From a virus, in the IMG/VR virus record IMGVR_UViG_3300046011_000346, positions 1 to 23,369 of that record: 23,369 nucleotides of DNA; one strand, written 5' to 3'. How positions within the stretch are numbered: position 1 is the first letter of the stretch; each line of letters starts with the position of its first letter. Made by a program: the position numbers and the translations under genes. This document shows, one piece after another, positions 1 through 20,836 of the stretch. Under the pieces are notes generated by a model. The model saw nothing but the letters and a program-made list of their open reading frames with translations. It was not told where the DNA came from and did no database searches.

Positions 1-191
1 AACCAGTTATAATTTCCAGCAGTAGTATCGCCATTAAATTGAATTTGCATATTTGCAAATCCTCCATTGGAGCGTGCAGATAATTTGATTACCAAATCAG
101 TATAGGTCTGCGGTATGTTAAGGAAGTCAATACTTGCAATACCACCACTACCTACTGTGTAGGTTGCTATCTTAGAGTATGTGTATGCCAT
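1..191 (-). CDS. Partial paralog of the LYG-ending beta-protein array (sixth member)
   Basis: The ATG at 191 overlaps the stop of the upstream gene as TAATG. About 63 codons are present and the C-terminus lies beyond the window. The translation starts MAYTYSKIATYTVGSGG, followed by IPQTYTDLVIKL and NGDTTAGNY. These match the conserved blocks of the five complete neighbours. It mixes features of both subtypes in the array: the VGSGG segment and NGD of the HLQIR type, and the YTDLV strand of the other type. The function is unknown. Its position downstream of the fibre gene suggests a virion surface or receptor-related protein, which is inference. Confidence 0.8.
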   Translation of the reverse strand, partial: MAYTYSKIATYTVGSGGIASIDFLNIPQTYTDLVIKLSARSNGGFANMQIQFNGDTTAGNYNW

Positions 192-709
192 TATGCCGCC
201 GCAATTCCGTAGAGGGTAAAGGTTGAGCCTAGTGCTAAATCTCCACTACCAGTTCTGCCTATAGTTATAGATGTAATTGCTGCAGTATTGCGCCATAAGT
301 TTACATAAGCACCAACTCCAGGATAACTGGTACTACCATTAGGTTGGTTAGCCCTACTGATTACAGTCTTGTTAGTTGTAGTATTGGAGTAGTTCATTAT
401 ATTAGCAATATAGTTCTGACCTAAATCAGTACCACCGCCAATATTATATTGTAGGTATGCAACTGTTTGATTGCTTGCTCTGGCTGATGAAGCAGAACTG
501 CCATTACCCCTTAACTCAGTTACAGAATAGTTGCTGCCAGAATCAGAATTAAATCGCAACCATACATTGTCGCCTTGGCTTAGGGTTCCTCCATTGATTA
601 CCAAAACTAAATCAGTATAAACTCCACTAATATTACTAAACACTACAGTAGCAGCAGCGCTGCTTAGCGTAGTCCTGGCAAGTGGTGTATATGTTTTTCC
701 TGCTGGCAT
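191..709 (-). CDS. Array paralog, 172 aa, YTDL subtype
   Basis: This is a complete 172-residue protein, predicted to be all-beta and rich in Ser, Thr, Asn and Gly, with no signal peptide or membrane segment. Conserved blocks are YTDLVLVI at about residues 31-38, NSDSGSNYS at 54-62, LRGNGSSAS at 67-74, NYSNTTTNKTVISR at 106-119, LWRNTAAITSI at 138-148 and STFTLYGI at 162-169. The same blocks in the same order occur in its neighbours. The start ATG overlaps the upstream stop (TAATG) and follows a GGGGTG Shine-Dalgarno-like stretch. I know this domain type as common in metagenomic phages near tail fibre genes but cannot assign a function. Structural or adhesin-like use is inferred from context. 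Confidence 0.85.
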   Translation of the reverse strand: MPAGKTYTPLARTTLSSAAATVVFSNISGVYTDLVLVINGGTLSQGDNVWLRFNSDSGSNYSVTELRGNGSSASSARASNQTVAYLQYNIGGGTDLGQNYIANIMNYSNTTTNKTVISRANQPNGSTSYPGVGAYVNLWRNTAAITSITIGRTGSGDLALGSTFTLYGIAAA

Positions 710-1272
710 TAGTTCACCCCGTATAGTGCGAAATGAGAGTACTGAGAAAATGTTGATGAAGAAGGAAATAATTTTATTGAACTAATAGCAGAAGTACTAC
801 GCCAAAGACCAGAACCTAAAGCAAGATTTCCAGATGAGTTATTATCATTACCGTGTAGTGAACGTATTGTTTTAAATTTGTTAGTATTTGCGTAATCTAA
901 TATATCAATAACAAATGGCGCAGGTGTGTTAGTTGCAACAAAACCATTTATGAACAACCAGTTTTCAGTTTGATTTGCTCCAGCACTTGCCACAGCACCA
1001 GAACCATTACCTTCTAAAAAATGGTAAGTGTAATTAGAGGCCGTATCGCCATTGTAACGCAAATAGATTCTCGGTGTTGCTCCACTTTGTGCCCAACCTC
1101 TTATCTGCAAATGACTATAAGTGCTAGGTATAGAAGTAAAATCAATACTAGAACTACCACCGCTACCTACAGTCACAGTAGCAATAGACTCATAGGAGCC
1201 AGGCATAATGACTGGGTTACCGACTAGGGCGCTTCTACTAAACTGTCCTGTCTTAAGACTTCTGATAGCCAT
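709..1272 (-). CDS. Array paralog, 187 aa, HLQIRG subtype
   Basis: This complete 187-residue beta-rich protein has a longer N-terminus than the YTDL-type members. Blocks are VTVGSGGSSSIDF at about residues 33-45, IPSTYSHLQIRG at 48-59, NGDTASNYTYHFLEGNG at 74-90, DILDYANTNKFKTIR at 123-137, LWRSTSAISSI at 156-166 and FSQYSHFALYGV at 175-186. It is closest in motif content to the 192-residue member at 2318-2896, not to its immediate neighbours. The start ATG at 1272 lies in a TAATG overlap, with GGAG seven bases upstream inside the preceding gene. It is probably part of the virion surface or adsorption apparatus, by location only. Confidence 0.85.
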   Translation of the reverse strand: MAIRSLKTGQFSRSALVGNPVIMPGSYESIATVTVGSGGSSSIDFTSIPSTYSHLQIRGWAQSGATPRIYLRYNGDTASNYTYHFLEGNGSGAVASAGANQTENWLFINGFVATNTPAPFVIDILDYANTNKFKTIRSLHGNDNNSSGNLALGSGLWRSTSAISSIKLFPSSSTFSQYSHFALYGVN

Positions 1273-1784
1273 TATAGAACTCCGTATAGGGTGAAGGTTG
1301 AGTTGGTCATAAAACTTCCACTACCAGAAATTACATCTATTCTATTTATAGCAGAAGTACTAGGATATAGTCCAGCAACCATAGATGCATATGCTGTAGT
1401 AGCATTATTTTCCCCTACTCCATCAGCACTAAAAGATTTGTTTACTGTAGTGCTTGAATAGTTTGGTATATAAATATGTGCGCTAGCAAAAGTGCTAGCA
1501 GTGCTGGAATCTCCAGTTCCTTCAACTGCATAAATACTGCCAACAGTAGAATAACTGGTGCTACTTGCTGTAGAACCATCGCCAAGTAAACGCCTTGCGG
1601 TATATGTAGAACTTGTGTCATTATTAAACTTAAGAGTAAAAGTACCCCAAATGCTTCCAGTTGAACGCCTTGTACTTGTTGTTAACAATAAATCAGTATA
1701 CCCACTAGGTATGCTACTAAAAGTAATTTCAGTTACAGGACTCTCAACAGTGGTAGATGCAATCTTAAATAGTTGTAGCGCCAT
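1272..1784 (-). CDS. Array paralog, 170 aa, YTDL subtype (divergent)
   Basis: This complete 170-residue member carries TFSSIPSGYTDLLL (about 21-34), NNDTSSTYTARRLLGDGSTAS (about 54-74), NYSSTTVNKSF (108-118), the degenerate LYPSTSAINRI (139-149) and STFTLYGVL (162-170). The usual LWR motif is replaced by LYP, so it is the most divergent of the complete copies in that block. Start and stop both lie in TAATG overlaps with the adjacent paralogs, implying translational coupling. There is no signal peptide or transmembrane segment. The role is unknown and is likely the same class of virion-associated beta protein as its neighbours. Confidence 0.85.
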   Translation of the reverse strand: MALQLFKIASTTVESPVTEITFSSIPSGYTDLLLTTSTRRSTGSIWGTFTLKFNNDTSSTYTARRLLGDGSTASSTSYSTVGSIYAVEGTGDSSTASTFASAHIYIPNYSSTTVNKSFSADGVGENNATTAYASMVAGLYPSTSAINRIDVISGSGSFMTNSTFTLYGVL

Positions 1785-2314
1785 TAGAGATTACCTGCCT
1801 CTATGCCGTAGAGTTTGAAGGTGGAGCCTGTATCAAGGTTACCAGCATAACCAATGCAACTAATAGAGTTAATAACAGATGTGTTACGCCATAATGCTAC
1901 CACTGCATCAGTTCCGCCACCAGCAACACCTGCTCTGCTAATTAATGTTTTAAATGTAGTGCTGTTTGAGTAATCTAAAAATTGAACTACAGTTGCAGAA
2001 AATGTTCCTGCCGCTGCTCCTGCCCCGTTCATAGCATTTGATGCAAGCCGATAGTAAGTATCATTAGTATTTCTTCCACTAAGAGCAGAAGTACCATCAC
2101 CTCTTAAATAGGTTGCAGAATAATTAGAACCAGTATCCGAGTTAACCCTAATTGCTAAACCGTCTTGAATTGCTCCAGCAGCAGTTGACCGCCCAGATAC
2201 AACAAGAACTAAATCTGTATAAGTTGCTGGTATAGAACTAAAAGTTACCGTAGAGGTTGATGTGCTTAGCGTAGTACTATTAATCAGAGTATATGTGCCT
2301 GTCTTAGCAGCCAT
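1784..2314 (-). CDS. Array paralog, 176 aa, YTDL subtype
   Basis: This complete 176-residue protein has TVTFSSIPATYTDLVLVV (about 22-39), NSDTGSNYSATYLRGDGTSA (58-77), FLDYSNSTTFKTLISR (112-127), LWRNTSVINSI (141-151) and STFKLYGI (164-171). It is the clearest example of the YTDL subtype. The ATG at 2314 sits three bases after the upstream TAG and has a good AAAGGGG ribosome-binding site with six-base spacing, so it is the only array member after the first that does not use a TAATG overlap for its start. The function is unknown; a tail or capsid surface role is inferred from the neighbouring fibre gene. Confidence 0.85.
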   Translation of the reverse strand: MAAKTGTYTLINSTTLSTSTSTVTFSSIPATYTDLVLVVSGRSTAAGAIQDGLAIRVNSDTGSNYSATYLRGDGTSALSGRNTNDTYYRLASNAMNGAGAAAGTFSATVVQFLDYSNSTTFKTLISRAGVAGGGTDAVVALWRNTSVINSISCIGYAGNLDTGSTFKLYGIEAGNL

Positions 2315-2317
2315 TGT

Positions 2318-2896
2318 CTACCCCTTTATACCATATAGTGAGAAGCGTGAGTATTGAGAAAAGTTAGACGCTTCAGGAATAATTGTTAAACTTGTAACAG
2401 CATCAAAACTTCTCCAGTTACCAGATATTAATCTTATATATCCAGGGGGAGAAGCAGCATTGTAATCAACTCCTGATAACGCTCTAACAGTTTTATATTT
2501 ATTAGTATTTGCATAATCTAATAAATCAAAAACAGCAATAGAATAAGTGCTAGATAATTGACTATCTCTTGGAGCCTGTCCACCAAGTAAATAAGTAGTA
2601 TTTACTTCAGCCTGTGCTGATGCGCTTGCACCATCACCAGTTAAAATATGATAAGAATAATTAGTTGCTCTGTCGTTATTACAATATGCAAACCAATAAT
2701 TTGTTCCAGTAGCAGACTGAGTGGTTCTAGAAGTTGCTCTAATTTGTAAATGCTTATAGGTCTGGGGTATGTCATTAAAGGTTACTTGGTTAACCCCACC
2801 ACTACCGACAAGGGTAGTGGCTATAGGCTCCATAAAGTTGTTGTCTAGTGCCAGGCTGATACCTGTCGCACCAGACTTAACACTAGTTATTGACAT
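2318..2896 (-). CDS. Array paralog, 192 aa, HLQIR subtype (first member)
   Basis: This 192-residue protein is the first member transcribed after the 108-residue protein. Blocks are TLVGSGGVNQVTF (28-40), IPQTYKHLQIRA (43-54), NNDRATNYSYHILTGDGASAS (73-93), DLLDYANTNKYKTVR (124-138), GNWRSFDAVTSL (159-170) and FSQYSRFSLYGIKG (179-192). The DYANTNKYKT and FSQYS blocks are shared with the 187-residue member. The start ATG overlaps the stop of the upstream gene (TAATG). This DNA is visibly more AT-rich than the capsid gene, in keeping with an accessory or exchangeable region. The function is unknown. Confidence 0.85.
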   Translation of the reverse strand: MSITSVKSGATGISLALDNNFMEPIATTLVGSGGVNQVTFNDIPQTYKHLQIRATSRTTQSATGTNYWFAYCNNDRATNYSYHILTGDGASASAQAEVNTTYLLGGQAPRDSQLSSTYSIAVFDLLDYANTNKYKTVRALSGVDYNAASPPGYIRLISGNWRSFDAVTSLTIIPEASNFSQYSRFSLYGIKG

Positions 2897-3222
2897 TAGA
2901 CCGAAGCCTCATCTCCGTATGCGTGGAACACTAGGTTCGCAGTAGATGCATACACGGTGATGACATCGGTAGTAGCAAGGGTGACACCTACAGTAATGAT
3001 AGTTGTATCAGCAGCACCGACAGTTACATCATAGGCTAGGTAGTGAACATTAGCCAAGGTTGCTCCAGCAGGGCGGATAGCAATACGGTATGTGGCAGAT
3101 GATGATGCCAAGTTACATACTGAGATGCTGGATACTACAGCCTCTTTAGCAGAAGGAACTGTGTATAGGGTTGTTGCAGTTGTCGCAGATGGGTTTGATT
3201 GCCCAAGGACTTTTTTAGCCAT
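2896..3222 (-). CDS. Small beta-rich structural protein, 108 aa
   Basis: This 108-residue, beta-rich protein starts at ATG 3222 with AAGGAG upstream. It contains a LYTVPS segment near residue 19, SSISVCNLAS near 31-40, and a C-terminal VHYLAYDVTVGAADTT and DVITVYAS region. Proteins with this VPxxxxAVVSSIxVCN and VITVYAS pattern are frequent next to tail fibre genes in metagenomic and actinobacterial phages, from memory. They are usually annotated as hypothetical or structural. It lies between the Ala/Ser/Thr-rich fibre gene and the paralog array, so a baseplate, fibre-tip or decoration role is plausible but unproven. Confidence 0.75.
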   Translation of the reverse strand: MAKKVLGQSNPSATTATTLYTVPSAKEAVVSSISVCNLASSSATYRIAIRPAGATLANVHYLAYDVTVGAADTTIITVGVTLATTDVITVYASTANLVFHAYGDEASV

Positions 3223-3237
3223 TTAGATATTTCTCCT

Positions 3238-5004
3238 TTAAGCGCCCATCAGCATAAATACTGACGGTGTTGGGTCGGTTACGATTGATGCCCACGAAGC
3301 AGTTGTTCCGTTCGTAGTCAAATACTTTCCATTGTTTCCAGTCTGGGAAGGTAGTCCAGATGGTGCTGCAGCCCAAGCAAGTCCTGTTGCTGTAGCACTT
3401 GATACTGTAAGAACATATCCATCCGTTGATGCTACTGTTAGAATCGCTGGGGTGTCATTAGCGCTAGCGGCAAGTATATCACCCTTGGCTGCAAAGATAG
3501 TCGGTTGAATTACTGCAGTTGTATCAAGGCTAAGTGTTACTGAACCTGATGTACCGCCACCAGTAAGTCCTGTACCAGCGGTAACTCCTGTGATGTCACC
3601 TTGATTAGGTGCAACCCACTCAAGTCCCGTTGCGGTAGCAGAGTTGACAGAAAGAATATATCCAGCAGTTGTAGCAACTGCTAGTGGGCTGAAGGCGTCT
3701 AGCCCTGTACCTACTAGCAAATCTCCCTTTGCATCAAAGGAAGCAGCAACTGCAGCAGCAGCGCTGGCTGCACTTACAGCAGCAGAGTTAGCAGAAGTCA
3801 GAGCAGATGAAGCAGATGTGCTTGCACTAGCAGCAGAGGTAGCAGCAGCAGTTGCACTGGCTGCAGCAGATGTTGCGCTAGTAGCAGCAGCGGTAGCGCT
3901 AGCGGCAGCACTAGTAGCACTTGTTGCAGCGGCAGTGGCTGAGGCAGCAGCCGAAGTAGCAGATGTGGCAGCAGCAGAAGCAGAGTTAGAAGCCGTAGTT
4001 GCATAGCCTGCAATTGTGGCTACAGAGTTAGCAGCCGTTAGGGCAGAGGCAGCAGCGCTTGTGGCACTGGTAGCCGCTGCAGTCGCAGAAGCCGCTGCAG
4101 AGGTTGCAGAGGTGGCTGCTGCTGTGGCTGAGGTAGATGCACTGTTAGCGCTAGTAAGGGCGCTAGAAGCGCTTGTAGAGGCGCTAGAGGCACTCGTAGC
4201 GGCAGAGGCAGCACTGGTAGCAGCCGATGCTGCTGAGGTTGCTGCAGCCGTTGCTGAGCCTAGAATGCTATCTACATAATCTTTAGGTGTGGCTGATGAT
4301 GAAATCATCCCTGCACTAGATAGACCAGTTATGACTGGACTGCCCGAGATAGTAGGGCTGGTCAGAGTCTTGTTGGTTAGGGTTTGGGTAGCATCTACGA
4401 TAACTACGGTGCCCGTTGTGTTAGGCAAGGTAATCGTATTATCTTGAGTTGGGTCTACAACTGTCAGAGTAGTTTCGTATGCGTCTGCAGTTGTACCTTC
4501 AAATACCAACACGGCACCTGCTGAAGCGGTGCCTGTAATTGTTGGGTCAGAGATTGTTGGAGACGTAAGGGTTTTGTTGGTAAGAGTTTGTGTCTTAAGT
4601 GTACCTACGACAACGCCTTCGCCTGAACCGATACCGTGCATTGTGTGAGCATTACCAGAACCATCGTTATAAGAAGCATCTGCCTCTGCGTGGAGGTTTG
4701 CGTCACGAAGGTCTCGACCAATTGCCATATGTCGAACTACTGCACCTGCTGAGTGAGACTGAGCAGTTGAGCCATCAATGGCTCGTGTTACGGTAAAGGT
4801 GTTAGTAGATACCGCAGTGGCATCTACAATTTCTTCAAGCGCCGTATCTGGGTCAATAACAAGAGTAAATGTTCTGCCTGATGGAATCGTTACACCACCA
4901 AGGAGAGTTGTTCCAGAGACAACTGTAAATGACGTAGCGCCAGCGGTAATGGCACCTGTCAGCGTTGACTGCTGAGAGCGAGAGGAGTATTGGCGAGTTG
5001 TCAT
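3238..5004 (-). CDS. Tail fibre protein with Ala/Ser/Thr-rich stalk, 588 aa
   Basis: This is a probable virion fibre for host recognition. Residues 1-100 form a beta-rich head with a TNTFTVTRAIDGSTAQSH segment (about 67-84). TLTNKTLTSPTIS occurs twice (about 140-152 and 208-220), a motif typical of phage fibres. Residues about 250-422 are almost entirely Ala, Ser and Thr, with tandem 14-residue units, like Phage_fiber-type stalk repeats. The C-terminal part has two similar units of AKGD(L/I)L ending in SATATGL(E/A)W (about 425-463 and 506-544), separated by GVTAGTGLTGGGTSGSVTLSLD-like sequence. There is no peptidase or chaperone tail at the C-terminus. The ATG at 5004 lies eight bases beyond the preceding stop and AGGA is upstream. 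Trimerisation is expected by analogy. Confidence 0.85.
   Translation of the reverse strand: MTTRQYSSRSQQSTLTGAITAGATSFTVVSGTTLLGGVTIPSGRTFTLVIDPDTALEEIVDATAVSTNTFTVTRAIDGSTAQSHSAGAVVRHMAIGRDLRDANLHAEADASYNDGSGNAHTMHGIGSGEGVVVGTLKTQTLTNKTLTSPTISDPTITGTASAGAVLVFEGTTADAYETTLTVVDPTQDNTITLPNTTGTVVIVDATQTLTNKTLTSPTISGSPVITGLSSAGMISSSATPKDYVDSILGSATAAATSAASAATSAASAATSASSASTSASSALTSANSASTSATAAATSATSAAASATAAATSATSAAASALTAANSVATIAGYATTASNSASAAATSATSAAASATAAATSATSAAASATAAATSATSAAASATAAATSAASASTSASSALTSANSAAVSAASAAAAVAASFDAKGDLLVGTGLDAFSPLAVATTAGYILSVNSATATGLEWVAPNQGDITGVTAGTGLTGGGTSGSVTLSLDTTAVIQPTIFAAKGDILAASANDTPAILTVASTDGYVLTVSSATATGLAWAAAPSGLPSQTGNNGKYLTTNGTTASWASIVTDPTPSVFMLMGA
3739..4257 (-). repeat. 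Ala/Ser/Thr-coding tandem repeat within the fibre gene
   Basis: This tract encodes residues about 250-422 of the fibre. The clearest unit is 14 residues (42 bases), AAATSATSAAASAT, present in consecutive near-identical copies around residues 345-390 and again around 296-322. The two blocks are separated by a non-repetitive insert near residues 323-344. Repeats of this type build rigid fibre shafts and can change in copy number by slippage. Long open frames on the opposite strand are a by-product of the biased codons. Confidence 0.85.
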
Positions 5005-11197: not shown

Positions 11198-12319
11198 TTA
11201 TACTCCGAATCCCATAGCGCTTGCCAAGCCAGTAGCAAGGTCTCGTGCACCATTAATTGCCCAGGTTGTTTTTTCTGCATTTGGATGGAACTTAAGATAC
11301 GTCTCAAAGTCAGCAAGACTTCCCATTGGTGTCTTGCCTGCTGTTCCATCTGGACGCAGGAACTTATCAAGGTCTGCATTGGATAGGTCAATTGTTGTTG
11401 GGTCTACTTCCCAATACTTGACCATTCTTCCAATATAAGGTTCAGCCAAGTCCATCACAGTTAAGTTAGGGTTAGCCTTGAGGCGGTCAGCAAAGAGTGG
11501 GTAAAGTTCTGCAGCCTTTGCATTGAATTGCTTCTTGAGGTCATCAAGAGTTACATCGCCCTTTGATAATTGCAAAGCGTAGTTAGCAATTTCTTTCTGA
11601 CCTAAATAGTCAAGACCATTCATCTTAAGAACTGAACGAAGAGCATCAACTTTATTTAGAACGCTGGTTGGTATGGTCTTTGGGTCTCCAATATTGACCT
11701 TAGCCCATAGGTAATTCTGGGCAAAAGCATTGGCATCAAAGCCACCAGGAGTGGTGATGATTTCCTTAGTTCCGTCTGGACGGATAACTTCTTTAGTTTC
11801 TTTGCCCGCAGCCTTGGCTGCTTCAGTTAACTTCTCAAAGAATTGGGCAAGGTCTTGTTCGCCAAACTGAGCAAATGAACCCTCAGCAAAACCTAATTGC
11901 TTGGCTGCATTACGAAGAATGGCATCAGATGTAATCTTGTCATAGTTCGTATAGTTGATGGTTACGCCAGTTTGGGTTGGAGCATTGTCCAACTGAATCT
12001 TTAGGACATCCCAAGGGGTCTGCTTCTTACCCTCTTTGTATGAGGCTACGGCTGCGTCAACCAGGCTATTAAATAGAGTCTTGCGAGCAGCATCGGTAGG
12101 CATACGATTCTGAGAAATAAGATACTGAGCAAGTGCTGCCTGTGCTGATTCTGATAGTTTAGCGAACGACTTCTTGACGAATGCAGAATCTTTCTTGACT
12201 AAGTTACCATCTTTATCTGGCATCCAGATATAGTTGATTACTTTTTTGCTTCCTTTGGCAGGGAAAACAATGTTGGTACTAGGGGCAGGTAAATTACCAT
12301 TATCTCTATACCTACTCAT
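11198..12319 (-). CDS. Putative internal virion protein, 373 aa
   Basis: This 373-residue mostly helical protein starts at ATG 12319, eight bases inside the 3' end of the giant gene. A short beta-rich N-terminus (NIVFPAKGSKKVINYIWMPD) leads to a helical body (about 45-350) with KKSFAKLSESAQAALAQYL and ALRSVLKMNGLDYLGQ. The C-terminus contains YIGRMVKYWEVDPTTIDLSN, DLDKFLRPDGT and DLATGLASAMGFGV. No signal peptide, transmembrane segment or catalytic motif was seen. The gene is coupled to the giant gene and followed in frame by the 474-residue gene, so the three may act together, for example in a core or ejectosome-like structure. That is inference from layout. Confidence 0.75.
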   Translation of the reverse strand: MSRYRDNGNLPAPSTNIVFPAKGSKKVINYIWMPDKDGNLVKKDSAFVKKSFAKLSESAQAALAQYLISQNRMPTDAARKTLFNSLVDAAVASYKEGKKQTPWDVLKIQLDNAPTQTGVTINYTNYDKITSDAILRNAAKQLGFAEGSFAQFGEQDLAQFFEKLTEAAKAAGKETKEVIRPDGTKEIITTPGGFDANAFAQNYLWAKVNIGDPKTIPTSVLNKVDALRSVLKMNGLDYLGQKEIANYALQLSKGDVTLDDLKKQFNAKAAELYPLFADRLKANPNLTVMDLAEPYIGRMVKYWEVDPTTIDLSNADLDKFLRPDGTAGKTPMGSLADFETYLKFHPNAEKTTWAINGARDLATGLASAMGFGV

Positions 12320-15300
12320 TTCCTACCTCCGTAAGTTTGTCGCTCAAGAAATATCTGTCAAAGATGTCTGCTAGATTCGGGTCAAGTAAATCAATAACTG
12401 ATTCAACATATTCAGTCCAAGCGTTTTGAACTGCTGACTTATATCCAGAGGGTGCATCTTTGTAAAGTTTTGCGTAGTCGTCTCTGTACTTCATCATTGC
12501 TTTGGCGTGAACCCAGAACTGACTGTTGCCGTGCTTTTCCATAAACTTATCGTTCTTAAGAATTTGGGTAAGTCCCCAAGCGTACTTGTAAGAACTATCT
12601 TGACTTACTCGATTCTTATAAACTCTACCCCAGGCTGGGCTATATACCGTAAGTTCTTGTGCATACTTTTGTAGTGCTTCACGCAATTCAGGAACTGAGG
12701 CATAACTTGCATAGCCTTTTTCTTTAGCCATTTTGTTTAGAAGGTCTTTATAATCTACGTAGACATCCCAAACTTTACCAACTTCAATATCGTTTTCTAC
12801 ATCCTTGATAGACTTTAAGGGTAAATTTAGGGTAGTTCCATCTGGAAGTCTTGTCCCTGGCTTATTGAGGATACGGCTAATGTTGGGGTCAGACTCTGAA
12901 CCAATCAAATCTGCTGTCATAAGACCGATAAGGTTCTTGTCAAACTCGCCTAGTTTTTTAGCAAGTCCAGCATTGTCTTCCCATACTCGGCTATAACCTT
13001 CAACCGTAGGTACAACATACGTTGCCTTTGGTTTTAACTTTGCACCAAAATATAGTCGGTCTTTGTCGAATGGCTGAGTTGCACCAAGTACTGCTGCTCT
13101 TTCATTCAAATCGTTTAGGGCAGCCTGGCTTGCTTCCTCATCGCTCATATTGGCAGCCTTGTATTTATCATAGGATGCTCTGTAATATGTCGAGAAGATA
13201 CTGTCTGGGCGCATATCAATGACGGCAGGTGAGCCAAGTGGTGAACCAAACTGCCACAAGAATTTTTCTCTGAATTTATTGCTTGTTTGTTTTGCAACTA
13301 TTTCTTCTGTTGGAGCCTTGCCAATACCCATTTCATATAGAGCCATCTGATAGTTCCATTCAGATGCGTAGGTATCTAGCCATTCTCTATCGCCAATATC
13401 TCCAGTAATCCATTGAACAGCGTTTCTTGCCCAGGCTGGAGTGAATGTTCTAATGGCTGCATCGCCTAAATCAGGGTTAACTCCATATGGGAATAGGTCT
13501 TCATATGAGTATCCAGGAATCTTGCCAAAGGTCTTATCAATTGCTTCACGAACCATTGTGCTTGCTTCAGGCTTAAAACTTACGATTGCACCCACAGCAA
13601 TTGGAATTGCGTAAGCAGGTCCAGCAAAGTTGGCAATAAAGTTAATGGCACGAGTTCCAACCATAATACCTTTGCCATTCTTAAGACCAAGTTCTTTGGT
13701 TCCTGGAACAATTAAGTATTCAGCATCTAATGGGTTATCTACTGGGTTTCCGTATTTGTCAACTCCGAAGGAGTTATACGCTCCATAGTATGAGTTGAGG
13801 AATCCAGCCATACGCGTTGGCGCCTTAGCAGCAAATCTTGTATAACGATATAAACCGCTGACAGATGCTGCTGGGAACGATAAGACTGTTCGTGCTGCAA
13901 AGATTGCTCTATTCTGACGGCGAATTGAGTAAAAAGTCTTCTCAGCCTCTTTAACCATTTCAATTGCTGCAGCCTGGCGAACAGAGTTAATTGTTCCAGT
14001 AGTAACTTCATAGCCTTGGGAAGCAAGAAGATTCAACTTTTCAGTTGTTCTATTACGCCATTCAACACTGCCCCAAGCCCAACGGATTGCATTTTCAGGG
14101 GCACCTAATTTAGCCCACGCTGCGCTGGTGGCTCTATCAAAAGCCTCCATAAGATTCTTGTTGTCTCTTATTGATGTTGAGTATTGATTATCCAATGGAT
14201 TGATTGGGGTCAATCTCTCTAGTTTGTCACCAAGAATTTGTGCTAATTGGTTACCACGAACCTCACCCTGAAGGGCTGCTGCCTTTGCTTCTAAGGTAGG
14301 TAGATAGCGGTTGACGTATGCTATCTGGTCATCAATCATATCAATTATGTCAGAGGCATCCCGACCAAATTCTTCGGCGTATGTCTTTCCGCCGCGCTTT
14401 ACACCCCAGGTTGCAATAATGTCATTGCGACTGCGACCAGAAAGAATCTGGTCAATAAGAACATCGCCTCGCATATAGTTATTAACAACATAGGCTAGTT
14501 CATCAAAATATGCTGGGTCATATACAGGAGTAATTCGGTTTGGTGTCTTACGACCTAACATTCCTACTCGGCTAGCAAAAGACTTATCTCCAAGAAGTTC
14601 AATCTCACGTGTGTGACGGTTGGAGATTTCAGCCTTGTATGAAGTTCCTAGGTGATTCTCACTCTCAAGACGAGGGATGTTAATGCTCTGTCCATTGGTT
14701 AGAACATATCCTTGTTCTTCTTGACGACCCTTACGGCGAATACGGCGGTTATCTGCAACCGACCATTCATCTGCTACAGCCTTGCGAGAAGGACCCATAT
14801 CAACAAGGACTTTATCAATATCATCATAAGCCTTTTTGATTGACACATTAAGTTTGTTTAGGTCTGGCGCCAAAGTGTTAATGTCACCTGCAGCCTTTGT
14901 AATTGCAAGTTCTGCTGCACTAATATCCCCAGCCAACTTAGGGTCATTTAATGACTTAAGATACATAGTTCTACGAACTAGACCATAAAGAGTTGGAACC
15001 TCTTCGCGGACAGTATTGAACTCCCTGGCTCTGTCTCGTGCTCTGCCTTCAAGGTTAGCAAGCAAGCGCTCTGCTGCCCGCAGGTTATCCTTGACAATTT
15101 CTAGGTTATCTGCTCTGGTTACTGGTGAGCGTTTTGTTGTATCTACAAAGAACTCAACCCATTCAGATACTGCATTGTCAGCAATATCAATAGCCTGCTC
15201 AATCTGCTGAGTATACATTCTATACTCATCCTTGAGGGCTTTCTTACGCAACTTATCCTTAATATTAGCCTTATCAACAGCAGCAAAGAAACGATTCCTG

Positions 15301-17564
15301 TTATTAAATAGGCTGTTCTTTACAAATGTCTCTGTTGAATCTGCAAGGAACTTTGAACCGAGAGACATAGTGGCAGCGTTCAAAGGCTCAAAGATAGAGT
15401 TCTTTGGAATATATGCTGGGCGGACAAGTTGTGCGAATGAGAATATCTTGTTACCAAACTCAAATGTTTGTCTACCAGCAGAAGTAAAGACATTCTGGCG
15501 TGGGTCAATAACGCCCTTTATTCTTGCTACTTGTCTTACAATTTCGCCCATTGGAATCAATGGTGTAGCGTTAGCCAATTGACGTTGAGTTTGAGGATTG
15601 ATTACAACCCTGTATCCACTTGGGTCCATAGCAAATGAATCCCGCTTGAGGTCGCCGTGATACTGACGCATACTTGTACTGAATTCTTCAACGAACGCTT
15701 TAGCCTGAACTCGGGTTAAACCCATACTATTGAGTGTGTCAATGGCTACATCGTCGCTCATCTTCTCAAAGAAAGCAGACCGAGCACCATCAGTCTTCTG
15801 CATTAGAGCCTGGTCAATAAGGTTGCGACGATAATCTGCAGCAGTTACGGTTGTTCCATCGGCTAATTTAACAGTCCTTTTGCCATCACGGAATAATGGA
15901 ATGTCATCAAGCCACGCATTGATTTCTTCAACTGCGTCACCTGGGCGTAGACCAGAGTGGCTTATAATTCCTCTAGGTAGTTTGCTACCAGTAAAGTGCA
16001 TTAGTACTGTGGCTGCTTTACCTTGAGCACCACCACCAATGACTTGTTGAACTATGCCGCCTACCTGACTATAATCGCGGACTTGAGTTCCTACAGAAAA
16101 CCTCTGACCAGTTTCACGAATCTTTGCTACAGCCCCACGACCAACTGGTGTTTTAACTAGAGGAATTACTGGCTCTATTGGTTTATAGGCAGTGCCTAGC
16201 ATACGAGGCTCTGGCAAGAACTGTCCTGATTGGATGTCATACTCATCGCGCATAAACGCATCAAAGATGTCCCGAGTTTCAGGATTCTTGGCAATAGCAT
16301 CATCAAATGCTTTGCTCCAACGCTCTTTAGCCTGTTGGTTGTATGAAAGATATTGACCAGTCTTAATGTAATTAGACGCTATTTCTTCGCCAGCATTGGA
16401 TAGATACCAGACATCATCCATCTTCTTAGCGCCAGCAAGGCGCTCAATTGCTGGGGCATAACCCTTATCAGCAAGAAGAAGGTCACGAACAAAGTTCGGG
16501 TCATTAGTATCTTTGATTAATGTAGCCAAACGAGGGTTGTTTGTGTGTGGCTTTAGAATCCTATTAATTAAAACAATGTCTTGCGTGTTGGCAAGATTGA
16601 CAATATCTGAACCAAATACAGTCTGTTGCGTACCTGAGATATGGTCATCTGCTAGTTTCTCTAATTTAGAGATAGCATTAACATCATAAACATTTATCTT
16701 GTTGCTTAATCCAGAGGCTCTTGCTGCTGCCTTAAGTGCTGAAACAGATGCTGAACCTACGCCAACAATTGCTGCATTACCAACTAAGAAGTCAGTAAAG
16801 CCAGTTAACCAACGACCAGTTGTATTGTCAACAAAGTTCTTTTGAACATCATTATCGTCCCATAGATTAACTCGGTCAATATCAATACCGCCATCTTCTA
16901 GGATGGCATCTGATACTCCTGTAATATGAAATGGATTTAGATAAGACTTTGTGAGGGCTACGCCAAGTGAAACATTCTTGCTTCGCTCATATGCAGTTTG
17001 AATGTCACTTAGTTGAATACCTTTACCATAGGCATCGTCTTCAAACAATGGACTTTCTGGGTCAGTAAGAAGTGCTGCTGCTGAGATAGGGCGCTTAATA
17101 TAAGGGCTAAGTACCTTCTCTTCAAGTTTAGCCGATACTTGCAATAATGGGTCAACAGGAATTGCTGCTTCCGCTGCTGTCTTTGCAGCATATTCAGACA
17201 TACCATCTCTAAGAAGTTGGTTTAGGTCTGTGCCATAGTCTTGTGAAATATCAGCGGCAGTTTTGGTAACACCAATTCTTGCTCCAGCCTGGAGGGCTGT
17301 GGCACCAGGACCTGCGCCAGGCTGTGCGCCTAATGCTTGAAAAGGAGTTGTTATACCTTTGCCTAGAAAACTAAGTACCTTACCTGCTGGTTCAAGAACT
17401 GGAGATGCAACATCTGTTGCCTTCTTTGCTACACCAAGTGCAGTCTTGACATTTTTTTCGGCACTTCTTTTAAGGATATTAAATGGAGAAAGAGCATCAA
17501 CAACTTGTCTTGCTGCTTTTTCGTCGCCACCTAAAGCCTTCTTAAAGTTATCCCAAAATGCCAT
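12312..17564 (-). CDS. Giant virion protein, 1750 aa
   Basis: This is the largest gene in the window. The ATG abuts the stop of the 68-residue gene. The N-terminus is basic and amphipathic (AFWDNFKKALGGDEKAARQ), with GKVLSFLGKGITTPFQALGA and an Ala/Gly-rich stretch to about residue 100. There are hydrophobic segments at about 255-280 (FTDFLVGNAAIVGVGSASVS) and about 1308-1330 (FAGPAYAIPIAVGAIVSF). The middle has long charged helices, about 760-860, with KDKLRKKALKDEYRMYTQQ. The C-terminal third has aromatic-rich helices. Length and position suggest an internal or ejected protein like those of short-tailed phages, able to cross the host envelope. I searched by eye for RNA polymerase, lysozyme and peptidase motifs and saw none. 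Confidence 0.75.
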   Translation of the reverse strand: MAFWDNFKKALGGDEKAARQVVDALSPFNILKRSAEKNVKTALGVAKKATDVASPVLEPAGKVLSFLGKGITTPFQALGAQPGAGPGATALQAGARIGVTKTAADISQDYGTDLNQLLRDGMSEYAAKTAAEAAIPVDPLLQVSAKLEEKVLSPYIKRPISAAALLTDPESPLFEDDAYGKGIQLSDIQTAYERSKNVSLGVALTKSYLNPFHITGVSDAILEDGGIDIDRVNLWDDNDVQKNFVDNTTGRWLTGFTDFLVGNAAIVGVGSASVSALKAAARASGLSNKINVYDVNAISKLEKLADDHISGTQQTVFGSDIVNLANTQDIVLINRILKPHTNNPRLATLIKDTNDPNFVRDLLLADKGYAPAIERLAGAKKMDDVWYLSNAGEEIASNYIKTGQYLSYNQQAKERWSKAFDDAIAKNPETRDIFDAFMRDEYDIQSGQFLPEPRMLGTAYKPIEPVIPLVKTPVGRGAVAKIRETGQRFSVGTQVRDYSQVGGIVQQVIGGGAQGKAATVLMHFTGSKLPRGIISHSGLRPGDAVEEINAWLDDIPLFRDGKRTVKLADGTTVTAADYRRNLIDQALMQKTDGARSAFFEKMSDDVAIDTLNSMGLTRVQAKAFVEEFSTSMRQYHGDLKRDSFAMDPSGYRVVINPQTQRQLANATPLIPMGEIVRQVARIKGVIDPRQNVFTSAGRQTFEFGNKIFSFAQLVRPAYIPKNSIFEPLNAATMSLGSKFLADSTETFVKNSLFNNRNRFFAAVDKANIKDKLRKKALKDEYRMYTQQIEQAIDIADNAVSEWVEFFVDTTKRSPVTRADNLEIVKDNLRAAERLLANLEGRARDRAREFNTVREEVPTLYGLVRRTMYLKSLNDPKLAGDISAAELAITKAAGDINTLAPDLNKLNVSIKKAYDDIDKVLVDMGPSRKAVADEWSVADNRRIRRKGRQEEQGYVLTNGQSINIPRLESENHLGTSYKAEISNRHTREIELLGDKSFASRVGMLGRKTPNRITPVYDPAYFDELAYVVNNYMRGDVLIDQILSGRSRNDIIATWGVKRGGKTYAEEFGRDASDIIDMIDDQIAYVNRYLPTLEAKAAALQGEVRGNQLAQILGDKLERLTPINPLDNQYSTSIRDNKNLMEAFDRATSAAWAKLGAPENAIRWAWGSVEWRNRTTEKLNLLASQGYEVTTGTINSVRQAAAIEMVKEAEKTFYSIRRQNRAIFAARTVLSFPAASVSGLYRYTRFAAKAPTRMAGFLNSYYGAYNSFGVDKYGNPVDNPLDAEYLIVPGTKELGLKNGKGIMVGTRAINFIANFAGPAYAIPIAVGAIVSFKPEASTMVREAIDKTFGKIPGYSYEDLFPYGVNPDLGDAAIRTFTPAWARNAVQWITGDIGDREWLDTYASEWNYQMALYEMGIGKAPTEEIVAKQTSNKFREKFLWQFGSPLGSPAVIDMRPDSIFSTYYRASYDKYKAANMSDEEASQAALNDLNERAAVLGATQPFDKDRLYFGAKLKPKATYVVPTVEGYSRVWEDNAGLAKKLGEFDKNLIGLMTADLIGSESDPNISRILNKPGTRLPDGTTLNLPLKSIKDVENDIEVGKVWDVYVDYKDLLNKMAKEKGYASYASVPELREALQKYAQELTVYSPAWGRVYKNRVSQDSSYKYAWGLTQILKNDKFMEKHGNSQFWVHAKAMMKYRDDYAKLYKDAPSGYKSAVQNAWTEYVESVIDLLDPNLADIFDRYFLSDKLTEVGNE

Positions 17565-18277: not shown

Positions 18278-18501
18278 TTCTCCTCTGGTGTGTATGAATA
18301 TTCTTCAGCGCTCAATAGCATTCCTTTGGCTAACCAAGGATTCATATTGTCGCTAACGTCTGTCATTAAGTATCGAGTGCCCTCATAATCTGACCACTCG
18401 CTTACAAGAACCCATCCTGTGCAGATTTGGCTCTCTGAATCTTCTAACTCTTCGGCAAGGATACGCATTGCCTTGTCTATAGCCTCGTTAAACTTGCTCA
18501 C
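18274..18501 (-). CDS. Small acidic protein, 75 aa
   Basis: The start is GTG at 18501, overlapping the stop of the protease gene as GTGA. Residues 1-20 form an amphipathic helix (KFNEAIDKAMRILAEELEDS). Residues 26-60 contain ICTGWVLVSEWSDYEGTRYLM and NPWLAKGMLLSAE. The GWVLVSEW...G.R......PW..KGML pattern recurs in small proteins near the portal in actinobacterial phages, from memory. The function is unknown. There are no catalytic or membrane features. Confidence 0.7.
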   Translation of the reverse strand: MSKFNEAIDKAMRILAEELEDSESQICTGWVLVSEWSDYEGTRYLMTDVSDNMNPWLAKGMLLSAEEYSYTPEEK

Positions 18502-19034
18502 TTATATTGAACTTCTTCATAAAAGGGAGGCGCTGAATAAGCGCTAACCTTAGATGCAATCTCCATAGCCTGCATTGGTTCTGCTCCTGCGTAAAGAGCA
18601 CCTAATGCGAATGGACCACCGCTACCAATAGCGTATACGTTGTCTTCATTCTTCATTACCGATAGGTCTTCATCAACATCAAAGATTTCTCCACCGACTG
18701 AGATAAGAAACTGAAAGCGCATACCGTCTTTCTTATCCTCGTCAAAGTTGTAGCCATTGTCTGTAAGGCATTTGCGAAGTGATGGCATAACCTTGGTAAT
18801 CATAAAGCGATAGACGTCTTTTTTGTCTTTCGCTGTAAACTGTGGCGGGTTCCAAATGTTCTGCGCTATATCGCACGGAGCAACTTCTCCAGCACCAGCG
18901 ATAAGCAAAGCGCCTCGCTTAGCAATCTTTCTCATTACCTTGTGGGCATATACTCGACCTGAATCGTCAATAACACGACTATCAGCAACTAGCACGCTCT
19001 TATCGCCATATTCAATTCCGATAATCGTTGTCAT
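18498..19034 (-). CDS. Proteasome beta/HslV-like Ntn hydrolase, 178 aa
   Basis: This is a probable self-compartmentalising Thr protease. The N-terminus MTTIIGIEYGDKSVLVADSR aligns with HslV (TTIVSV...). Removal of Met1 would expose Thr2 as nucleophile. Asp18 and Lys36 (in VMRKIAK) match the conserved Asp17 and Lys33 of mature HslV, with a two-residue insertion. LLIAGAGEV (43-51) matches the glycine turn. NVYAIGSGGPFALGALYAG (132-150) matches the HslV GSGG motif with Ser138. The HslV-like C-terminal helix follows. Length fits HslV (about 175). It has no propeptide. It lies between portal and virion genes, so head-maturation proteolysis is an attractive role. No ATPase partner is seen here. Start is fixed by a strong AGGAGG site. 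Confidence 0.85.
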   Translation of the reverse strand: MTTIIGIEYGDKSVLVADSRVIDDSGRVYAHKVMRKIAKRGALLIAGAGEVAPCDIAQNIWNPPQFTAKDKKDVYRFMITKVMPSLRKCLTDNGYNFDEDKKDGMRFQFLISVGGEIFDVDEDLSVMKNEDNVYAIGSGGPFALGALYAGAEPMQAMEIASKVSAYSAPPFYEEVQYK

Positions 19035-19048: not shown

Positions 19049-20836
19049 TTATCGTCGTCGAATAGTTCTTACGCTTGCGTTCGCTTCTCCTGCACCTGTA
19101 ATGCTTGATAGAAGACTTAGAATGTCTGGTGCGCCTGCTGCTGGTGGTAGTTCTGGTGCTGCACCTGCTGGAAGAGCGCCTTCTACTGGAGCGCCTATGG
19201 GAGCAGGGGACGGTTGCTCAACCATTTCAGGGGCAACCCCAGCAGAAGGAACTTGTTCTGCAGCGGGGAATGCTTCTTCAATCGCATCCTCTAGGGCAAC
19301 ACCTTTCTGGCGAGCCTTGATAACTGCAGCAATCTTACGCACAATATCAGATGCGTCTCCACCCTGTGTAGCCATTGCTGGAATTGCTTGTGTGTAAGCA
19401 GTCAATGAACCAAGCAACGCTTGGCGCATATTTTCAACTTCAATCTTTTCAAGTTCTTGTGTGACGTTAACTGTGAATGGAAGTTCACGCATAGCCAAAT
19501 CTTTAGAGATAAGACCGCCACCGAGAGCCTGAAGCATAAAGATTAGACCTTGTGCTGGATTAAGACCAGCGAGCATTCCGTAACGGACATCTGCAGAGTA
19601 ATCACCTTTAATGTCTTTGACTGGGCTGTAGGTGATTTCATAAGGTGAACCAGCATCTACACCACGAATTGTCTTTGTCTCTGGAAAAATCTTTTCGTCT
19701 ACTTCAAAGCAAATCTGAATTACATCGCGTAGTGCACTAGCAAAGATTGCTTGAGCGCTCTTAACCTGGGTATCAAATGCACCCATAAGAGCCTGTACGC
19801 CTTGACCAGTAACAACTGAAGCGTCAATATTTCCTGTACGTCCTTCAGGATAACGTGCACCTACACGCATTTCTTGATTGAGCAATGTCTGCTCTGTGAA
19901 TGCGCCTTGAGGAAGATTAAGTTCTACACGACGAACGCCCGCTGGTGAGTTGGTGCGGATAATCGCATCTCCACCAAGCATAAGTTCTTGTACGTCTGTA
20001 GGCAGAACGATAGGAGCCTGAACAGATTTCTCTGCTGCTTCCATTGCAAGGAGAGCGAAGCGGTTGCGTAGCAACTGAATACCAATGATGTCATCGAATT
20101 GACCACGCATATCGCCATCAACAGATGGCTTCTTTGCGACAACAATCATCATCTTTCCAAGTGGATTCTTAGCAGTTGAAAGAACTAAGTTGCCCTTTGT
20201 TGGAAGATAAACAACCGATTGGTCTTTATCGTAGTAGCGAATCATCTCAACCTGTTGAGTCAAATCTTGCTTGTAGCGTAACTTGCCAAGCAGTTCGAAC
20301 TCAAATTCAGGGAACAAGGAAACAAGTTCGCCTAGTGTCATTGTGTATCGTTTTGCAAAAGCAACGCACCGTCCGTAGCGGTCGAAATCAGGGTAAGCAC
20401 CTATTGGGTTCTCTAGGCGTATGCGTGGCAGTTTTGCTTCTTCGTCGAGTTCTACTACGAACGGGACGAAACCATATGTGATGTACCAGTCTGCGCCTTG
20501 ATACATCTGTACAGATAAATCTGAGTGAGCAAAATAATTAGAGGCAATGCGAGTACGTGTATCAGCAAACTTACGAGCCCTATCAGAAACCGAATTCGCC
20601 GCGTTACAGTTAACCGCTGGTAGTGGAGCCATAACCTCTGAGAGGTCTCGCGCAACAATATCCACAAAATTTGCAACGACATTGGCATCTACCCCATCTG
20701 GAAAAAAGTCAGGGTATACAGAAGCAATCTGACCTTTGCGTACAGCAAGGACGTCAAGGTTGCGCTGGTCCCTGTCTACAGAGCGGTAGCGTAGAGACTC
20801 TACACGCGCTGCAATCTGCTCGATTGATAATGCCAT
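19049..20836 (-). CDS. Portal protein, 595 aa
   Basis: This forms the dodecameric DNA entry ring at one capsid vertex and docks the terminase. It follows the terminase by one small gene, as expected. The N-terminal part has RNLDVLAVRKGQIASVYPD, VVANFVDIVARDLSEVMAPL and MYQGADWYITYGFVPFVVEL, a pattern I associate with portals of actinobacterial phages. IRLENPIGAYPDFDRYGRC and later helices (EAAEKSVQAPIVL, TLLNQEMRVGARYPEGRTG, VVTGQGVQALMGAFDTQV) fit the wing and stem. The C-terminal part (about 515-595) is Pro/Ala/Gly-rich. The ATG at 20836 has AAAGGA upstream. No fused MuF or protease domain is present. Confidence 0.8.
   Translation of the reverse strand: MALSIEQIAARVESLRYRSVDRDQRNLDVLAVRKGQIASVYPDFFPDGVDANVVANFVDIVARDLSEVMAPLPAVNCNAANSVSDRARKFADTRTRIASNYFAHSDLSVQMYQGADWYITYGFVPFVVELDEEAKLPRIRLENPIGAYPDFDRYGRCVAFAKRYTMTLGELVSLFPEFEFELLGKLRYKQDLTQQVEMIRYYDKDQSVVYLPTKGNLVLSTAKNPLGKMMIVVAKKPSVDGDMRGQFDDIIGIQLLRNRFALLAMEAAEKSVQAPIVLPTDVQELMLGGDAIIRTNSPAGVRRVELNLPQGAFTEQTLLNQEMRVGARYPEGRTGNIDASVVTGQGVQALMGAFDTQVKSAQAIFASALRDVIQICFEVDEKIFPETKTIRGVDAGSPYEITYSPVKDIKGDYSADVRYGMLAGLNPAQGLIFMLQALGGGLISKDLAMRELPFTVNVTQELEKIEVENMRQALLGSLTAYTQAIPAMATQGGDASDIVRKIAAVIKARQKGVALEDAIEEAFPAAEQVPSAGVAPEMVEQPSPAPIGAPVEGALPAGAAPELPPAAGAPDILSLLSSITGAGEANASVRTIRRR

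Follow-up and report, generated by a model that had tools for sequence, protein, structure and literature searches.

The window, by which we mean the whole 23,369-base stretch analysed here, is from a virus record (IMGVR_UViG_3300046011_000346). On its minus strand, genes for terminase, portal, protease and capsid are followed by a tail fibre gene, a gene for a small beta protein and then an array of related genes. Class HMMs, described below, score this array as ABCABC with its end cut, and the features are as follows.

3238-5004, minus strand: tail fibre, 588 aa (phrog_38058, E 1e-127)
2896-3222, minus strand: 108-aa beta protein, directly upstream of the array (matches the tail-fibre PHROGs 11338 and 693, and phrog_1276)
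2318-2896, minus strand: A1, A subunit of triplet 1, 192 aa (class A HMM; AlphaFold2 pLDDT 90)
2834-2896, minus strand: putative anchor peptide of slot 1, MSITSVKSGATGISLALDNNF, N-terminal in A1 (low confidence in the AlphaFold2 monomer model)
1784-2314, minus strand: B1, B subunit of triplet 1, 176 aa (class B HMM)
1272-1784, minus strand: C1, C subunit of triplet 1, 170 aa (class C HMM; AlphaFold2 pLDDT 88)
709-1272, minus strand: A2, A subunit of triplet 2, 187 aa (class A HMM)
1195-1272, minus strand: putative anchor peptide of slot 2, MAIRSLKTGQFSRSALVGNPVIMPGS, N-terminal in A2
191-709, minus strand: B2, B subunit of triplet 2, 172 aa (class B HMM)
3-191, minus strand: C2, C subunit of triplet 2, first 63 codons, the gene being cut by the contig end (class C HMM)

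An earlier note, made from the sequence alone, had described six minus-strand genes of 170-192 codons sharing ordered sequence blocks. Five of the genes are complete, and the sixth amounts to only 63 codons. The blocks are present in the members with exceptions in several genes: ISGVY replaces IPxxY in 191-709, NYSSTTVNKS takes the place of the form ending in KT in 1272-1784, and LYPSTSAI and NWRSFDAV stand where LWRxTxAI is expected. The common ancestry proposed in the same note is borne out, in that the class profiles match one another with an hhalign probability of 100% (E 2e-44 and 5e-41), and so is the position of the array after the tail fibre, with the one 108-aa beta gene between. What went unnoticed is the grouping of the six into two A-B-C units, of which the second is truncated by the contig end. 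Members are 30-49% identical to one member used as reference; a Pfam scan of the window members gave no match at E up to 1, and B2 weakly matches PHROGs, in the C-terminal portions of longer phage proteins.

Some further observations concern the window itself. A 45-base block over the DYANTNKYKT motif is 89% identical between the two A genes (869-913 versus 2490-2534) even though the A1 and A2 proteins are only about 42% identical, and is a possible recombination site. In the head-gene region, 18498-19034 (minus strand) encodes a proteasome/HslV-like protein (phrog_1040, E 8e-28; PF00227, E 1e-5), possibly a prohead protease. Elsewhere, 12312-17564 (minus strand) encodes a 1750-aa protein whose sole match is phrog_10618, of unknown function, with none in Pfam. 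For the major capsid protein, identity is 79% with OX376640 and does not exceed about 55% with Streptomyces phages. By record name, OX376640 is LanE43-AprE7 and OX376641 is LanE43-AprF5, the two isolated Planktophila phages (PMC10202952). Capsid likeness to E7, together with the identity of E7 and F5 as Planktophila phages, indicates that the window is probably from a freshwater actinophage.

A unit of three genes across relatives

Relatives were fetched with seeds of all classes (A, B and C queries). Merging left 121 independent groups, for the most part viral contigs from metagenomes, and 100 of these are not cut at a contig end. Class HMMs were trained on the first loci and then applied to all. 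Of the first 90 loci, 62 have three copies, 13 have six and 4 have nine, most of the others being cut by contig ends. Counting copies in relatives, as the earlier note had advised, thus gave multiples of three: 93 of the 100 uncut groups are exactly one to three repeats of A-B-C (ABC 78, ABCABC 9, ABCABCABC 6), and gene numbers in uncut pure arrays are always multiples of three. Three more uncut groups (L068, L160 and L054) combine complete triplets with divergent relatives, which in L054 and L068 lie outside a triplet, and the remaining four hold single relatives only, namely Microdon and three retrieved deliberately, using a fibre-fused single as query. All 34 held-out uncut pure arrays are in A-B-C order. 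Cut arrays end in phase except for that of L090 (7323-9413), the sole out-of-phase array, which consists of a divergent member, an HNH-like gene, an anchorless A-class domain and C. Directly ahead of an ABC triplet, two phages (L107, 863-1321, and L161) have a divergent relative that ends in LYG.

Class also corresponds to position. With tree labels given to members by gene order alone, the tree requires 5 label changes, against a minimum of 121 and a mean of 133 in 200 shuffles. The three clades, A, B and C, each have their own signature and a clear class consensus. Gene junctions are mostly one-base overlaps or gaps of 1-3 bases, and 16 spacing breaks are listed among the arrays. Those falling between A, B and C genes contain ORFs with HNH-like motifs, recognised by eye (L030, L046, L070, L080, L083, L104, L123, L129, L132 and L133), and gene order is kept across them; a Pfam search of two such ORFs, from L046 and L123, found HNH_3 in both. 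Breaks past a complete triplet, in L068, L032 and L054, contain a small EEIAQREADA protein. Downstream of the last C, 52 loci encode a protein of this type, and others have endolysin-like genes there, again by eye. The 108-aa beta protein is the usual neighbour of the array in one set of relatives (39 loci) and possibly a docking partner for the structures proposed below. Downstream of the nine-gene array of L013 is a gene (19175-20473) that by eye is tail-sheath-like (MAFSRPGVYVQE...), on which basis contractile-tailed phages may carry the module too. A prophage origin was also considered: when bacterial and archaeal genomes were scanned once, the only confirmed cases were two contigs from a single actinobacterial MAG, with one ABC each, which suggests that carriers of the array are mostly lytic phages.

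Genes of this family have probably been seen before. The Planktophila phages LanE43AprE7 and F5 were reported to carry 'three proteins encoding DUF2541' and two collagen-like proteins in a second genomic island, possibly linked to host recognition (PMC10202952). E7 (OX376640) has one A-B-C triplet, and from their number and place the three DUF2541 proteins are probably this triplet, though the main text of that paper describes no classes, triplet unit, multiples or complex. We did not reproduce the label: no window member matched a Pfam family at E up to 1, and DUF2541 does not appear, at a cut-off of 0.01, in the list of families for 75 B members. A more sensitive method may lie behind the published label. 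What is new here is the unit of the array, the fixed A-B-C triplet.

Fold, extensions and co-variation of the three chains

The AlphaFold2 models of C1 and A1 contain 12 beta-strands and no helices, and the fold predicted for the domain common to A, B and C is a 12-stranded beta-sandwich. Many phage relatives are found in BFVD, some named fibronectin III or glycine-rich. Fold matches in the PDB are weak (Z up to 7.8) and comprise GH32 sandwiches, Pgp3, C1q-like and lectin folds. The C1 model matches the C-terminal domain of Pgp3 with Z 7.6 (2.7 A over 105 aligned residues), C1QL2 with Z 6.5 and Cbln1 with Z 6.0, lectins and GH32 sandwiches scoring alike, and the A1 model matches Pgp3 with Z 6.3. 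Foldseek against the PDB returned nothing at E 0.001 or better, no solved chain matched the A, B or C profile at E up to 1, and the domain is without a Pfam family in these scans.

Outside this domain the classes differ. The median N-terminal extension is 26 aa in A and 3 aa in B and C, and long C-terminal tails were found in ten B or C cases and in no A. Fusions of A to fn3 or to fibre segments occur in some relatives, as does a C-terminal glycine-rich domain, PF21722, on B and C; the Pfam scan did not find this domain in the window members. The window follows the triplet pattern, with classes in order and the N-terminal extension on A only, A1 consisting of the slot-1 peptide and the beta-sandwich domain. 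Across six related multi-triplet phages, the A anchors of slots 1, 2 and 3 are 93, 80 and 81% identical and the A domains 51, 48 and 53%, which indicates turnover of the domain on a fixed anchor. Between slots, the corresponding values are 31 and 44%. The slot-2 A domain of one phage (L006) is closest to slot 1 of another (L008), an exchange of A with A. The most variable parts are strands 4, 6 and 7 together with loops 3 and 6, plus loop 7 in A; loop 2 is conserved, as are the strands at either end of the domain.

Co-variation was analysed in 73 loci that have a single triplet and are no more than 62% identical. The strongest inter-chain column pairs score z 11.0; permuted data reach about 5. 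The leading columns, 1-6 and 161-167, are the first and last strands; the same strands are involved in all three chain pairs and also co-vary within chains, and adding multi-triplet phages gives a similar picture. Because C-to-A pairs lie about 1 kilobase apart, DNA neighbourhood is unlikely as the sole cause, although linkage or shared descent could account for part of the signal. The fit of A, B and C by co-variation for same-slot versus other-slot combinations gave p values from 0.017 to 0.36, depending on the cut-off.

A proposed heterotrimeric head and its alternatives

At the level of sequence, the family thus presents homology, three classes, a fixed order and unit, anchors on A only, tips on B and C only, slot anchors that are conserved beside diverging domains, and co-variation between the chains. 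We consider it likely that the array encodes obligate A:B:C heterotrimeric receptor-binding heads, one per triplet, of which the window encodes two and probably three. Each triplet would supply three homologous beta-sandwich chains, one of each class, packed round a pseudo-threefold axis, with the first and last strands of the three chains forming a shared core. A alone would dock the head on the virion through its slot-specific N-terminal peptide and would hold B and C. The host surface would be bound by the variable strands and loops of all chains or, in some relatives, by the C-terminal glycine-rich domains of B and C. The phage of the window would then carry two heads, a third being probably encoded past the contig end with an anchor like MASISLKYKSKQGSLTAPGD. 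Physical 1:1:1 assembly, the site on the virion and receptor binding are what we infer here.

A precedent exists in the mycobacteriophage Mysterious (subcluster B5), where a cryo-EM preprint describes gp35, gp36 and gp37 as a heterotrimer present six times per baseplate (PMC13252515). The likeness extends to three consecutive genes of about 200 codons and to a beta-sandwich heterotrimer at the tail tip anchored by N-terminal arms, and this preprint was the only close case in word searches of papers for heterotrimeric tail fibres or tailspikes. The sequence of Mysterious was not found, and Acadian served as a stand-in; we take Acadian to be a B5 phage, and its gene sizes agree. Acadian gp35-37 are three tandem paralogues (phrog_282), which, taken with the Mysterious structure, suggests that a single heterotrimer can be made of three tandem tail paralogues. 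Acadian has one triplet at this place, however, and the A-B-C family up to three. Its gp35-37 have no detectable homology to the A and C profiles (hhalign probability 0.3%, with a shallow Acadian profile of three rows), and phrog_282 is not among the PHROG matches of the window members. The globular head of complement C1q is likewise built from A, B and C, paralogous jelly-roll chains encoded by neighbouring genes, but given the weak fold match to C1QL2 this is an analogy only.

Equal gene numbers and a fixed order would also be expected if A, B and C each formed a homotrimer and these were stacked as successive fibre segments, all needed in order. Single-copy relatives, perhaps homotrimers, do occur in Streptomyces phages: the C-terminal domain of Microdon gp29 and its relatives is homologous to A (hhalign probability 98.5%), although, unlike the A-B-C sets, gp29 is a single copy fused to its own N-terminal part and presumably a homo-oligomer. 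We nevertheless regard stacking as rather unlikely, since B and C, with about 3 residues ahead of the domain, are without linking segments, and co-variation of the same strands in all three chain pairs better suits a shared core.

Less probable still is the main reading of the earlier note, an interchangeable repertoire of independent adhesins whose number and identity alter host range. Fast divergence of the domains and their exchange between slots in relatives would fit such a repertoire, as would the hypervariable island to which the E7/F5 authors assign what are probably the same genes, with a possible link to host recognition (PMC10202952). Yet the unit of duplication is a fixed triplet (3, 6 or 9 genes in A-B-C order) from which uncut pure arrays never depart, the anchor is on A only, the clades stay separate and the one clear between-slot exchange is within class. 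The broader suggestion of that note, a duplicated set of probable surface, receptor-interacting proteins, is supported, as is its hint of hetero-oligomers.

The trimeric fibre gp24 of Pam3 has a TNF-like beta-sandwich followed by a glycine-rich receptor-binding domain, and needs a 3:3 chaperone with a beta-sandwich N-terminal domain (PMC9608196). B and C might by this example be folding or capping partners of A that leave the mature virion, but glycine-rich tips on B and C, not A, in some relatives and a single fold family for all three chains make this very improbable. The tips of Pam3 gp24 and S16 gp38 fibres do resemble the PF21722 tips of some B and C chains, and the shared build of beta-sandwich and glycine-rich domain speaks for the proposed head; gp24, however, is a homotrimer of one gene, while in the A-B-C family the glycine-rich domain is optional and missing from A.

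More tentatively, heterotrimeric heads of this kind raise the possibility that freshwater phages carry up to three different adhesins of this type simultaneously, nine paralogous chains per operon, each with its own A anchor, and that slot exchange confined within classes renews binding surfaces with assembly unbroken. Phage fibres and tips are mostly regarded as homotrimers, and a head made of three obligatory paralogues would differ from these. The claim is directly testable, since two relatives have been isolated; their host, 'Ca. Planktophila', belongs to an order that is abundant in fresh waters. If the claim is true, a wide family whose sets are duplicated whole would provide a composite, non-symmetric binding site, and the rule for reading such arrays in metagenomes would be to count sets, not genes.
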